This document shows, one piece after another, positions 58,334 to 63,998 of a stretch of 64,000 nt of DNA. The position numbers were made by a program, and so were the translations under genes. Source of the DNA: Puniceicoccaceae bacterium (GTDB taxonomy: Bacteria > Verrucomicrobiota > Verrucomicrobiia > Opitutales > JAFGAQ01); assembly GCA_028285755.1 (NCBI GenBank), contig JANQOQ010000006.1, positions 124,001 to 188,000 of the forward strand, written 5' to 3'. The notes under the pieces are model-generated. The model had not been told where the DNA came from, searched no databases, and worked only from the letters and a program-made list of their open reading frames with translations. Within the stretch, counting starts at the first letter, position 1. Every line of letters starts with the position of its first letter.

Positions 58334-60312
58334 TACTCAAAACAGAGTGGTTTTCGCCACGTCTGAGCTTTCTCATACTATGTAAACTAATGGGCTCAAT
58401 ATTTTGTAGCATTGAAGGCCGCGAAATCAGTGATTCCATAGCCATATTTGAAAAGCAGCTTGAGCAGAATAATTCTCCCCAGGAACGGGTTGATCTGTTG
58501 AATCACTTGGCCTGGCACAATATTTTTGAGGATCCATCGAAGTGCAAAGGCTATCTGGATGAAGCTCTGGAACTGGCCAAAGAGCATCACTACCGTAAGG
58601 GAGAGGCGTCCACCCATGATATTTGGGGTACGATCCTCCGCATGACGGGGGTATACGAAGAGTCGCTCCGCTATCACCTCAAAAGTCTGAAAATCAGTGA
58701 GGAGATCAACTGGGAAATGGGGATCGGTATCACGTACACCAATATTGGAATCGTTTATGCGGAAAGCGGGCAAGATGAGCAAGCTTTGGAGTTCCTGTTG
58801 AAAGCACTTCCCTACAAAAAACGATCAGGCGACTCGACAGGTGTCTTTCTGGCTTACGGAGATATTATCAATATCTATCTTAAATTGGATGAACTGGACA
58901 GCGCACTGGAGTATAACCAACTCTTGCTGGATTATAAGAAATCCCAGAATACTCCGGGGGAATACGCGACCGCTTACTACAATTTTGCCTCTATTCATGC
59001 AAAGCTCGGTGAAGATCAGCGTGCCACGGAGTACCTGGATCTCGCGGAAGAACAGCTGGCTATCTTGAGTAATAAGTGGGTGGAGATTCAGATAAACAAA
59101 TTGCGCGGTGAAATTTTGGCAAAGCAAGGCAGGCACGATGATGCATTAAAAAAAATAAATCGTGCTTACATCATCGCGGATAAGTATCACATGGTAGATG
59201 TTCGTGGCAAGACCGCAGGCATTCTCAGTGATCTCTACGCACACACAGGCGATCTTCAAAAGGCTTATGAATTTCAGAACATTCAAAATGAGCTGCTGGT
59301 TAAAAGCTTCAGCTCAAACGCGCATACCAAGACTGCATTGCTCACCGCACGATACGACATGCAGAAGGAGCAAATGCTACTGGAAAGCCGTTATCAGTAT
59401 AGAATGGCGATTGTATTCATTGCCATAGCTGTCCTACTGATGATGCTATGTGTAGCCATCGCCTTTGCCTTCATCTTCAATCGAAAAAAGGAGAAGCTCC
59501 GCGTGGCCTATGCAGAGATCGAACAGCAAAATCAGTTGATCGAAACCCAAAAACTTGAGCTCGTTGAGTCCAATGCGGCCAAGGACAAGGTATTCTCAAT
59601 CATAGCACATGATCTGCGCAGCCCTCTGGCAAGCCTGAGCTCGTTACTGGAGCTCTATAATCGGGATTACATCGGTATCGAAGAGCTGCGGGAGATGATG
59701 GATGACTTGTCCCACAATGTAAATTCAGTCAATGAAACCCTTTCCCAGCTGCTGCATTGGGCCAAGAATCAATTACAGGGTATTAAAAGCTCACCCCGCG
59801 AAGTCCGGCTCTATGACATTGTTCAAGAGAAAATGGAGCTATTTGAAACCGCAGCCAAAAATAAGGATATAATTATTCGGAGCACAGTTAGTCCCGACCA
59901 CCAGGTTTTTGTGGATGAAGATCAAATCAAACTGGTCGTACATAACTTCATCAACAATGCCCTCAAATTTACACCGGAAGGCGGCAAAATCATCCTGAGC
60001 TCCGCAATCAGCACAGGTGAAAAGACTATTGAGTTATCCGTCGAGGATACCGGGGTAGGGCTCAGCGAAACTCAAATCAATCAGTTATTTAAATTATCTT
60101 CTTTGGGTTCAACATTCGGAACCAACGGAGAAAAGGGAACGGGCCTCGGCTTGATGCTCTGCAAGGAAATGATCGAGAGCAACCACGGTGAGCTGCTCAT
60201 TGAAAGCACTCCCGGAAAAGGCAGTCGCTTCAGCGTGCGCTTACCCGTCGCCATTGCTGAAATCGATAGCTCTGAACTCAGCGAGTCGCCTGTATTAGCC
60301 GAAAGCGCGTAG
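58327..60312 (+). CDS. TPR-domain sensor histidine kinase
   Basis: A 661-residue protein. A hydrophobic N-terminus (LSFLILCKLMGSIFCSIEG) probably exports the sensor region. Residues about 40-320 are tetratricopeptide repeats (YHLKSLKISEEINWEMGIGITYTNIGIVYAESGQDEQALEFLLKALPY). A transmembrane helix lies at about 357-384 (MAIVFIAIAVLLMMLCVAIAFAFIF), followed by a coiled coil. HisKA is FSIIAHDLRSPLASLSSLLELY with the phospho-acceptor His428. The ATPase has an N box NFINNALKFTPEGG, G1 VEDTGVGLSE and G2 GTGLGLMLCKEM. No response regulator is adjacent, so it is an orphan kinase here. This layout is common in Bacteroidetes and also found in Verrucomicrobia. Confidence 0.93.
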   Translation: MSILKTEWFSPRLSFLILCKLMGSIFCSIEGREISDSIAIFEKQLEQNNSPQERVDLLNHLAWHNIFEDPSKCKGYLDEALELAKEHHYRKGEASTHDIWGTILRMTGVYEESLRYHLKSLKISEEINWEMGIGITYTNIGIVYAESGQDEQALEFLLKALPYKKRSGDSTGVFLAYGDIINIYLKLDELDSALEYNQLLLDYKKSQNTPGEYATAYYNFASIHAKLGEDQRATEYLDLAEEQLAILSNKWVEIQINKLRGEILAKQGRHDDALKKINRAYIIADKYHMVDVRGKTAGILSDLYAHTGDLQKAYEFQNIQNELLVKSFSSNAHTKTALLTARYDMQKEQMLLESRYQYRMAIVFIAIAVLLMMLCVAIAFAFIFNRKKEKLRVAYAEIEQQNQLIETQKLELVESNAAKDKVFSIIAHDLRSPLASLSSLLELYNRDYIGIEELREMMDDLSHNVNSVNETLSQLLHWAKNQLQGIKSSPREVRLYDIVQEKMELFETAAKNKDIIIRSTVSPDHQVFVDEDQIKLVVHNFINNALKFTPEGGKIILSSAISTGEKTIELSVEDTGVGLSETQINQLFKLSSLGSTFGTNGEKGTGLGLMLCKEMIESNHGELLIESTPGKGSRFSVRLPVAIAEIDSSELSESPVLAESA

Positions 60313-60359
60313 GAGCGAAATAGCGGGGTGTATCCATACACCTGAGCTCTCAGTTGAGA

Positions 60360-60821
60360 CTAAATATTCTCCCAGGCGCGGTCAGCCACCGGATCCCGGC
60401 CTTCATCATATTCAATATGATCCACGATCGTCTCGATTCGTTTCCCTGCAAATATGGGATCGCTGATCCGCTCCGCAAGCACTTCAGCACGTTCATCCCG
60501 CCAGCCGAGTTTTAAAATAAAACGGTTCCAGACATGACACTCCTCATCCGTCCGGGGAGTTCCCTGCGCGTGGACCCACTTGAGCACTTCTTCATCATTG
60601 TCCACCGTGAGGGCCTGCTCCCGAACATCCGCATAATCGATACCCAGGAAGCGGCAACAACGGCCATCCAGCGTGTAAAACTCCTTATCTCCAAGCTTCT
60701 CAACATAATCGGCTGGAAGCTTTCCAGCGGCATGAAGCCTTATTTTATCCAGCATACGGCCAAAGTGGACAAGGCGACCTACTTTGGAGTATACACTTCG
60801 TAATCCAGGAACTTGCGGCAT
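60360..60821 (-). CDS. DUF5069-family protein
   Basis: A 153-residue soluble protein. The pattern LRSVYSKVGRLVHFGRMLDKIRLHAAGKLPADYVEKLG, then LDGRCCRFLGIDYADVREQALTVDNDEEVLKWV matches DUF5069, a family of about 150 residues widespread in Verrucomicrobia and Cyanobacteria with no assigned activity. No signal or membrane segment. It converges on the histidine kinase gene; between the stops (60313-60359) are two small hairpins without a U tract. Confidence 0.82.
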   Translation of the reverse strand: MPQVPGLRSVYSKVGRLVHFGRMLDKIRLHAAGKLPADYVEKLGDKEFYTLDGRCCRFLGIDYADVREQALTVDNDEEVLKWVHAQGTPRTDEECHVWNRFILKLGWRDERAEVLAERISDPIFAGKRIETIVDHIEYDEGRDPVADRAWENI

Positions 60822-60924
60822 AGTAAAACAGTTTTGGGCTAATAGAATCTCTTGTGAGTAGCTGCCTATCGTAAAAGTCCGTCTCTCGTCGTCGCAACCT
60901 CTTTATACCTTTCAGAAAAATCTA

Positions 60925-61237
60925 CTAGCTTATCGGGGCTGGGGGATAAAGTGATTGTTGATTGAGGCTGGCGTTATCTGTTTTTTCTTGCACCCAGAAT
61001 TTAAGGCCAGAGTTTTGGTATCCAAAAGTACTATCGCGAGCAAAACCAGTCTCTCCTGCAGGCAGTAATTTTACACCTTCCTGGACGTAATGGATGTCAT
61101 TGAGGGTGAAGCGGCCGCCCTCAAGTAAAGGCAGGAGGAGCGATAATTATAGCGTCAATAGGCTCTTCCATACTTTCTTCCAGGGCATCTACTTCAGCAG
61201 GATAATGACCACGCAAGGTTGAGTCTATTCGACTTTT
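60925..61237 (-). pseudogene. remnant of a four-carbon acid sugar kinase (OtnK/DUF1537-type)
   Basis: Minus-strand reading from 61237 gives KSRIDSTLRGHYPAEVDALEE and continues to IIIAPPAF in one frame, ending in a TGA at 61121-61123. The next frame carries on exactly at the family position with LEGGRFTLNDIHYVQEG, then KLLPAGETGFARDSTFGYQNSGLKFWVQEKT and a TAG at 60925-60927. Removing one base around 61125-61129 restores a continuous segment matching the N-terminal domain of four-carbon acid sugar kinases (STLRGH, APxxxEGGR, PAxETxFARD, FGYxxSxL, EKT). It covers only about 100 of roughly 430 residues, lacks both ends, and its start runs a few codons into the coding end of the FG-GAP gene. A third frame (to 60868, DKLVDFSERYKEVA) may be further debris. 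It accounts for most of the gap 60822-61224. Confidence 0.82.
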
Positions 61238-63090
61238 TCTTTGATGATCACTGAGTCGATGTAGATAAGGTCATTTTCATCGTCTGCATGGCTAACGAAA
61301 CGGACACGACTAATGCCGTTGTACTTCGAGAAGGATAGCATTTCATTGCGGTAGTCGATGCCGGGCTCTTCCTCATCGTTGTAGTAGGTGCGAAGGTTGT
61401 GCCATTTTCCATCAAATACTTCGACCGTGAACATGTCGCCCGGATCCCAATCGAAGCCTTTCCAACGAAATTCCAGCTGACCTTCATAGATTTTTTCAGG
61501 GAGCCTGCGGGAAACACGAACGTTGGTTGGGATTTTGAGGGAATACTCACCTTCAAGCACGTATTCTTCAGTCGGGATAGCTTGCCGCTGAGTAAACCAC
61601 GGAGCGCTCCAACCTGTACCGCCTTCCAGGCCGCCCGATTCAAAATCATCACTGGCGACAACTTGTGTTTGTGCGTTTTCGAACCATGCCACACCGAAGG
61701 ATGTGAAAATAGCGTCGGAAGCTTCGCGGAGTTGCCAGTTATTGGAACGACCCCGCATGTTAATGAAGCTTTCTTCGGAATTGACGATTACATCAAGATC
61801 GCCATCGCCATCCATATCTCTGGCCAGGACGTTATCGATCTTTTCGCCGCGCCACTCTCTGCCTGTATTATAGCCATAAGAGAGCTTTATGGGGTGATAG
61901 ACCCAGTTGTCTGCGCCGGGCTTATCGCCGGTGTATTCCATCCAGAACACCAGGTATTTTTGCGGCTCGATGTAACCGTTGCGCTGAGGGAAGCCGTAAT
62001 CGTTGTTGCCGAAGTAGTGAAGATTCCCACAGAGGATATCCATTTGACCGTCCCCATTGATATCGACCACTTCGACAAATCGCTGGAGCTGCACGGCATC
62101 GCCCCGTTTTTCGATGATGATTTTCTCATAATCGAGAGAGTCAGCACTCTTTTTGCGAAAGAAGGCGATGCGATCATCCCGAATGGGGCAGACAAGGTCG
62201 GTAAGGCCATCACCATCCAGATCCCCGGCAGCTACCTTAACTTTGTAGAAATATTCTTCGCTGGTATCAATAATATGCCGGGGCCAGACACTGCCTGCGA
62301 GAGCTTCAGGTGTGTTTTCATACCACATGATGGCAATTTCATCCGTCGGTGTGTTGAAATCAGCATTATTGATGAGTATATCCTGGTCTCCGTCTTCATC
62401 CAGGTCGAAAAAGCGGAATCCGTGGCCGCTCCAGAGTTTTGCATCTACTTCGTGGACGGTCCAGGAGTCGATATCGCGGGCATTTTTCCCGGGATTTTCG
62501 ATCCAATGAATGCCCATGAGGCTGTCATTCTTTGGGTTTTGACGCCCCCCAACAAAAATATCGAGATCACCGTCCCCGTCGATATCTCGCACGTCGCTGT
62601 AGTGAGGGTTACCGACATTATCGAGCGCTGCAAAGGTTTTAGAAAGCTTCCAATTTTCCGGATTTGCAATCTCTTTAGGCTCCGGGCCCCAGAGAATACG
62701 TACGCGACTGGGGTCCTTGTGCTCAGAGCCTTCGACAGAGACAAGGTCGAGATTTCCGTCGCCATCGAAGTCGCCGACATTGGCATGTTCGTTTTGTTCC
62801 GTCTGCAAGACTTCTACTTTTTGCCAATAGTCGTAGATGGCTTTATCATTGGTGCCGGGGTGCAGGAGTAAAGTGAGGCCAGTGAATACTCCAAACTCTT
62901 GGATCACGAGATAATCAGTGTAGCCATCCTGATTAAAGTCAGCCGGGCCGAGTGAGTTATAACCACAGTAGCGGTGCACATCCGGCTTGGGGTCGATGTG
63001 GTGCATAATCCACTGGTCAGCACAGGCATGGGTGATAGCGACCGCACCTAGGGTAATCGCGGATAATAAGGTAACTTTGTTTTTGATCAT
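61225..63090 (-). CDS. secreted FG-GAP/VCBS repeat protein
   Basis: About 621 residues from the ATG at 63090; an ATG at 63105 adds five residues. Signal peptide to about THACA. At least seven calcium-binding FG-GAP-type loops are seen: ADFNQDGYTD, GDFDGDGNLD, RDIDGDGDLD, FDLDEDGDQD, GDLDGDGLTD, VDINGDGQMD and RDMDGDGDLD, forming a beta-propeller. The C-terminal 150 residues (SDDFESGGLEGGTGWSAPWF) look like a carbohydrate-binding-type beta-sandwich. It starts 8 bases (from 63105) or 23 bases (from 63090) after the hydratase-like gene, probably co-transcribed. Likely a surface or secreted glycan-binding protein. Confidence 0.88.
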   Translation of the reverse strand: MIKNKVTLLSAITLGAVAITHACADQWIMHHIDPKPDVHRYCGYNSLGPADFNQDGYTDYLVIQEFGVFTGLTLLLHPGTNDKAIYDYWQKVEVLQTEQNEHANVGDFDGDGNLDLVSVEGSEHKDPSRVRILWGPEPKEIANPENWKLSKTFAALDNVGNPHYSDVRDIDGDGDLDIFVGGRQNPKNDSLMGIHWIENPGKNARDIDSWTVHEVDAKLWSGHGFRFFDLDEDGDQDILINNADFNTPTDEIAIMWYENTPEALAGSVWPRHIIDTSEEYFYKVKVAAGDLDGDGLTDLVCPIRDDRIAFFRKKSADSLDYEKIIIEKRGDAVQLQRFVEVVDINGDGQMDILCGNLHYFGNNDYGFPQRNGYIEPQKYLVFWMEYTGDKPGADNWVYHPIKLSYGYNTGREWRGEKIDNVLARDMDGDGDLDVIVNSEESFINMRGRSNNWQLREASDAIFTSFGVAWFENAQTQVVASDDFESGGLEGGTGWSAPWFTQRQAIPTEEYVLEGEYSLKIPTNVRVSRRLPEKIYEGQLEFRWKGFDWDPGDMFTVEVFDGKWHNLRTYYNDEEEPGIDYRNEMLSFSKYNGISRVRFVSHADDENDLIYIDSVIIKEKVE

Positions 63091-63113: not shown

Positions 63114-63998
63114 TTAGTTTACGTAAATAGTTATTATGCCTAAGGGGTCGCAGTCCCCCATGTAGATGCCTATGGCATCTGCGCCACTGGCCTTATACGG
63201 AGGTGCCACTTTGCCCGAGATGATTACATCCCCGGCTTTTAAAGGGTTGCCGCGCCGCGCATGCGCATTGGCGATACTCAGTAGCACATTCCAGGGGCTA
63301 CCCATTATATTCGTGGAATTTCCCTCATAAATCTTTTGTCCGTCTTTATGCATAGTGAGCGTGATTGCATCGAGATCGACTTCATGGGGTGAGACACCTT
63401 CGCCAATCACATAGTTACGGGCACCGGAACCATTGGCTACAAAATCGAAAATCATACGGGTTTGACCCTCACGAATGTCGTAGCGCTCGTCTGCTATATC
63501 AAAGGCTGCATGGACGGAGTTCACGTAGGGTTTCAGCTCTTCAACACTTGATATTGGCTCACGAATGTCCGACCGTATTTTAAAGGCAATCTCAGTCTCT
63601 ATATGGAATAGGAAAAAGTCCTTGATGTGGATCGTGCCGCCATCAGGGGCTTGGTATGAATTGTAGAGCGCACCGGTCACGGGGGCATCGAGATTGTATT
63701 CTTCGAGGGCGTCCGCAGTGGCAAAGGCTACCTTATAGCCAACCACCTCGCCTACCAAGGGTTCTAGTTTTTTGCTCAGTTCATGCTCGATCTTGTAGGC
63801 CTCTTCCAATGCAAAATGTCCAAAATTTGTGCTGAGCAGAGGTACGGCAGAGCCTGACTTTCTGCCTTCCAGCAGCGTATCGACCATAGCGTCCATCTGA
63901 TTTTCAGTGAGCGAATTTGTGGACTCAGCGAGCAGTATCGGAGAGATCAGGATCGCTGGCAAAATTCGATAGAAATTCAACAGTTTGTGTACATTCAA
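63114..63998 (-). CDS. 2-keto-4-pentenoate hydratase-like protein with export signal
   Basis: About 290 residues of the MhpD/fumarylacetoacetate-hydrolase-like hydratase family: VVGYKVAFATADALEEYNLDAPVTGALY, FFLFHIETEIAFKIRSDI (metal-ligand Glu pair), HAAFDIADERYDIRE, NGSGARNYVIGEG, NIMGSPWNVLLSIANAHARRGNPLKAGDVIISGKVAPPYKASGADAIG. Family members are normally cytoplasmic, but this one begins with a hydrophobic stretch (LLNFYRILPAILISPILLAEST) that looks like a signal peptide. The first codon in the window is a TTG at 63998 with only two bases left, so the true start may lie outside; treat the 5' end as unproven. It is followed by the FG-GAP gene. Confidence 0.8.
   Translation of the reverse strand: MNVHKLLNFYRILPAILISPILLAESTNSLTENQMDAMVDTLLEGRKSGSAVPLLSTNFGHFALEEAYKIEHELSKKLEPLVGEVVGYKVAFATADALEEYNLDAPVTGALYNSYQAPDGGTIHIKDFFLFHIETEIAFKIRSDIREPISSVEELKPYVNSVHAAFDIADERYDIREGQTRMIFDFVANGSGARNYVIGEGVSPHEVDLDAITLTMHKDGQKIYEGNSTNIMGSPWNVLLSIANAHARRGNPLKAGDVIISGKVAPPYKASGADAIGIYMGDCDPLGIITIYVN

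Follow-up and report, generated by a model that had tools for sequence, protein, structure and literature searches.

The minus strand of the analyzed DNA carries a fragment from the interior of a DUF1537 (OtnK-type) acid-sugar kinase gene, spread over two reading frames from 61234 to 60973, and this piece is very probably the leftover, still in place, of the kinase of a GntR-led catabolic operon. The window, i.e., the whole stretch of 64,000 nucleotides that was analyzed, corresponds to C15:124001-188000 of a 4.25-Mb assembly (15 contigs, 97% complete), and the remnant sits deep within a 1.1-Mb contig. It is an ordinary decaying gene, a pseudogene of the DUF1537 family, since it has neither an NBD_C domain nor an open frame, and the neighboring genes still look intact. 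The features concerned are listed in Table 1.

Table 1. Location of the kinase remnant, its neighbors and the intact kinases of the same genome (window positions unless a contig is named)
Feature	Position	Strand	Evidence or remark
Remnant, 5' piece (SRxDSTLRGHYPAEV... region)	61124..61234	-	SBD_N E = 6.8e-8; tblastn with intact kinases starts at 61234
Remnant, 3' piece, other frame (EGGRFT...HYV...FGY...EKT region)	60973..61128	-	SBD_N E = 5.7e-8 (G000:C15:184973-185128); tblastn frame -3
Break zone	61121..61135	-	4 bases longer than intact copies, with in-frame stop; sequence versus alignment of nine intact kinases
FG-GAP repeat protein, complete, 626 residues	61225..63105	-	Pfam FG-GAP_3; G317 homologue
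DUF5069 gene, downstream of remnant	60360..60821	-	PF16798 E = 1.6e-41
FAH/2-oxopent-4-enoate-hydratase-like protein	63114..63998	-	PF01557; NCBIfam TIGR03220 below cut-off; likely start just past window edge
Asp/Glu-racemase-like gene, just right of window	G000:C15:188038-188706 (L037:8036-8707)		
Two intact DUF1537 kinases in this genome (extent of SBD_N)	C15:862764-863465 and C3:201683-202396		PF07005

The first-pass annotation had read a DUF1537 segment in two frames, and profile searches bore out this assignment. A genome-wide search with PF07005 (SBD_N; cut-off of 25 bits) gave four matches, namely two complete domains and the two halves of the remnant, each of which passes on its own (33.7 and 33.4 bits). 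Joined into 85 residues with an X at the break, the halves reached 71.7 bits (E = 9.9e-20), far above chance, and covered only positions 82 to 158 of the 230 in the profile, i.e., a partial domain. As seen by tblastn with intact kinases, the homology sets in with the SRxDSTLRGH motif at 61234, where the alignment begins at residue 129 in the 484-codon frame of the C3 copy of the same genome, and becomes faint at about 60973 to 60940. The extent originally proposed, 60925-61237, therefore stands from 61234 to about 60973 and does not quite reach 60925, the limit in single tblastn alignments being about 60940 to 60950. A loose tblastn search of 60300-61400 with nine intact kinases gave no other kinase piece beyond scattered matches with E values of about 0.1 or worse, and a distant blastn search of a plasmid collection with 60822-61240 gave no match. 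Within the four-carbon acid sugar kinase family (OtnK, DtnK, and DenK; PF07005 plus PF17042), ATP-dependent kinase activity on acid sugars is reported for DtnK and DenK (PMC10971088) and a place in L-threonate breakdown for OtnK (PMC12540250). The remnant shares with this family the middle of SBD_N and the invariant residues; unlike family members, it has no start, no complete SBD_N or NBD_C, and a broken frame.

The gene is truncated at both ends, as had also been proposed: besides the partial SBD_N and the tblastn limits, the first ~127 and the last ~267 codons are missing, and a genome search for NBD_C (PF17042) gave two matches only, both inside the intact kinases, with no orphan domain. 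The remainder of this kinase copy is thus nowhere in the assembly, which speaks against the possibility, raised at the outset, of a sequencing error with the rest of the gene intact elsewhere. Because both ends are gone and the genome holds no orphan NBD_C, a one-base error is insufficient and the piece is most probably a deletion remnant. The frame break itself is not the single extra base near 61127 originally described; the surplus in the break zone (about 61123-61135) amounts to an extra codon plus one base, and the first frame is closed by a stop at 61123-61121. Between stops, what is left measures 49 codons in one frame and 73 in the other, without a single kinase open reading frame of ~420 to 480 codons. 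The only possible start in the 73-codon frame is a GTG at 60993, and no start codon gives a useful frame. As judged from its sequence, the remnant would yield no working kinase.

Next to the remnant, the FG-GAP gene is complete. Its homologue in genome G317 is 64% identical over residues 31 to 622 of 626 and ends 5 residues past the match, the window protein ending 4 residues past residue 622. The last two sense codons and the stop of the FG-GAP gene (61233-61225) overlap the remnant and are thus kinase DNA read in another frame, which places the 5' breakpoint a few codons at most from where that gene naturally ends. The deletion or rearrangement junction that the first-pass annotation had placed at this gene agrees with the coincidence between its natural end and the start of kinase homology. 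A search for the FG-GAP protein in 35 genomes (our own and 34 relatives) gave matches in 13, with only repeat-level similarity outside our own genome, and a contig scan with the same protein gave one distant locus (39%, residues 32 to 493) that was useless for synteny. In the neighborhood of the G317 homologue, a GntR gene is oriented the opposite way, and there is no kinase-profile, FAH, or racemase match. Neither the loci read nor the one contig scan revealed a close relative sharing this locus. We also observed a second FG-GAP gene in the same genome (G000:C3:54715-61600, L040:9716-16601; 37% over residues 45 to 464), beside what appear by eye to be sigma/anti-sigma and large receptor genes, with another FAH-like gene nearby on the other strand; this is a recurring set in the genome.

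To place the remnant among intact kinases, nine references found by fragment and family searches were aligned (two from the same genome and seven from others), including the kinase of genome G130, which was counted as intact though cut short outside the core. Twenty-seven core columns are invariant among the nine, and the remnant retains all 26 that are testable, the 27th coinciding with the X typed at the break. Its identity to the nine kinases (47 to 60%) lies within the range found among them (40 to 74%). By our own arithmetic, 26 of 26 retained columns set a 95% upper bound of ~11% on the amino acid replacement that such sites have undergone since the gene was lost. Since all testable invariant columns are kept and the identity falls inside the range of intact kinases, the decay looks recent in terms of substitutions, though undated, in line with the high conservation and recent decay suggested beforehand. 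By identity, the remnant is closest to its own paralogues (59 to 60%) and not to the racemase-linked kinases of genomes G196 and G130 (51% and 56%); eight other racemase-linked kinases that were compared are 11 to 27% identical to it. A DNA search of the genome with 60822-61240 returned only the query itself and a 51-base patch within the intact C3 copy that is 80% identical, and the genome therefore holds no recent duplicate. The two intact copies, about 60% identical to the remnant over the shared segment, are, unlike it, complete and lie in other clusters, one by a D-2-hydroxyacid dehydrogenase and one by an isopropylmalate-type dehydrogenase and a cyclase-family gene.

The relevant context of the remnant, a GntR gene and an Asp/Glu-racemase-like gene, lies just past the window edge. 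Upstream of the FG-GAP gene and on its strand, a TonB-receptor-like gene comes first, and a GntR/FCD regulator, a gene of the Asp/Glu-racemase family, and a FAH-family gene follow; the FG-GAP gene, the remnant, and the DUF5069 gene come next. From GntR to the remnant, which closes it, this is a same-strand run. The earlier proposal of a pathway like that at 2 to 5 kb was not supported: the genes there encode a GFO/IDH/MocA oxidoreductase and a xylose-isomerase-like TIM barrel, along with a protein that matches the enolase superfamily only weakly, and none is a kinase. The racemase-like protein differs at 6 of the 52 positions that are invariant in 13 homologues; four of the differences are conservative (L to M at 29, V to I at 86, and L to I at 98 and 176) and two are not (D to A at 130 and A to R at 156).

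Searching 387 genomes from the phylum with the racemase gave 22 rows from 19 genomes, of which 20 places were kept after leaving out our own copy and the second row of the broken gene of G130. All 14 racemase places scoring at least 122 bits have a DUF1537 kinase within the fetched flanks of 1.5 kb, and none of the six weaker homologues (110 bits or less) does, with the threshold between them set only after the split was visible. Ten of the 14 linked kinases were confirmed with Pfam, and the remaining four matched, at E values of 1.4e-164 or less, an in-house profile whose ten source kinases include eight taken from these loci. The racemase-kinase clusters are of two kinds: in G196 and G130 the racemase precedes a kinase of the remnant's subfamily (51 to 56%), while the eight other linked kinases that were compared share only 11 to 27% identity with the remnant. 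The G196 cluster (locus L044) carries GntR, racemase, and kinase in the order and strand seen here (racemase, 60%; GntR, 42%); its kinase, unlike the remnant, is intact with both domains, and, unlike the window, no FAH or FG-GAP gene was matched there. Here, FAH and FG-GAP genes separate the racemase from the remnant, an arrangement absent from the other loci that were read. As a comparison, G130 has to be taken with the caveat that its racemase and kinase genes (contig 29, L071:123-1449) are themselves frame-broken or cut short near the contig end, which, from the sequence, may reflect either draft error or decay. A pairing of Asp/Glu-racemase-like genes with DUF1537 kinases was not found in the titles and abstract openings covered by our literature search, and we do not claim the pairing as unreported.

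As described above, the remnant lies on the operon strand, behind a racemase whose close homologues pair with kinases, and this supports loss in place. The kinase of a GntR-led operon would once have been intact at this site. Deletions, whose number and order we infer, would have taken its 5' quarter and everything past the middle of the sugar-binding domain, and a small insertion would have shifted the frame of what remained. The 5' breakpoint would have fallen just where the FG-GAP gene naturally ends, which is how the final codons and stop of that gene could come to be read from kinase DNA. Several points count against this course: truncation at both ends requires at least two events, no close relative sharing the locus turned up among those read, FAH and FG-GAP genes separate the racemase from the remnant, the racemase and kinase genes of G130 are themselves broken, and the remnant shows slightly higher identity to its own paralogues than to the kinases linked to a racemase, so that another DUF1537 gene could be its source. 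An internal piece of another DUF1537 gene copied into this site would explain both missing ends in one step and would fit the higher identity to the paralogues. Nevertheless, we consider such an insertion unlikely, because the remnant differs by 40% from both intact copies, which excludes a recent copy of them, and lies where the operon kinase is expected, given the racemase-kinase pairing at all 14 places.

That the kinase gene is whole in the real genome, its present state being an assembly or sequencing artefact, is highly improbable: the remnant lies far from any contig end, and the codons absent on either side, like an orphan NBD_C, are missing from a 97% complete assembly. Hardly any weight falls on retention of the stretch for a new use, whether as a short protein or as untranslated spacer or regulatory DNA between the FG-GAP and DUF5069 genes. 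The high amino acid conservation might suggest such a use, but it tracks the former kinase reading in two frames, recent loss accounts for it, and the 3' frame has no usable start codon.

With loss in place as the preferred reading, the remnant alone matters little, being one lost gene in one operon, and it provides an example of an operon minus one enzyme whose neighbors are apparently intact. It also draws attention to an uncharacterized Asp/Glu-racemase-like gene that keeps company with DUF1537 kinases, a pairing that offers a clue to the substrate of the racemase-like protein. Tentatively, the racemase-like protein might be a dedicated, uncharacterized partner of DUF1537 kinases across the phylum; with the kinase lost here and the GntR, racemase-like, and hydratase genes kept, the pathway might then use one of the two other kinases or a kinase-free FAH route. 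In a further genome, G323, a RuBisCO-like gene adjoins the racemase-linked kinase, and the RuBisCO-like, DUF1537 kinase (both by Pfam), and racemase-like genes are consecutive at L072:6845-10164.
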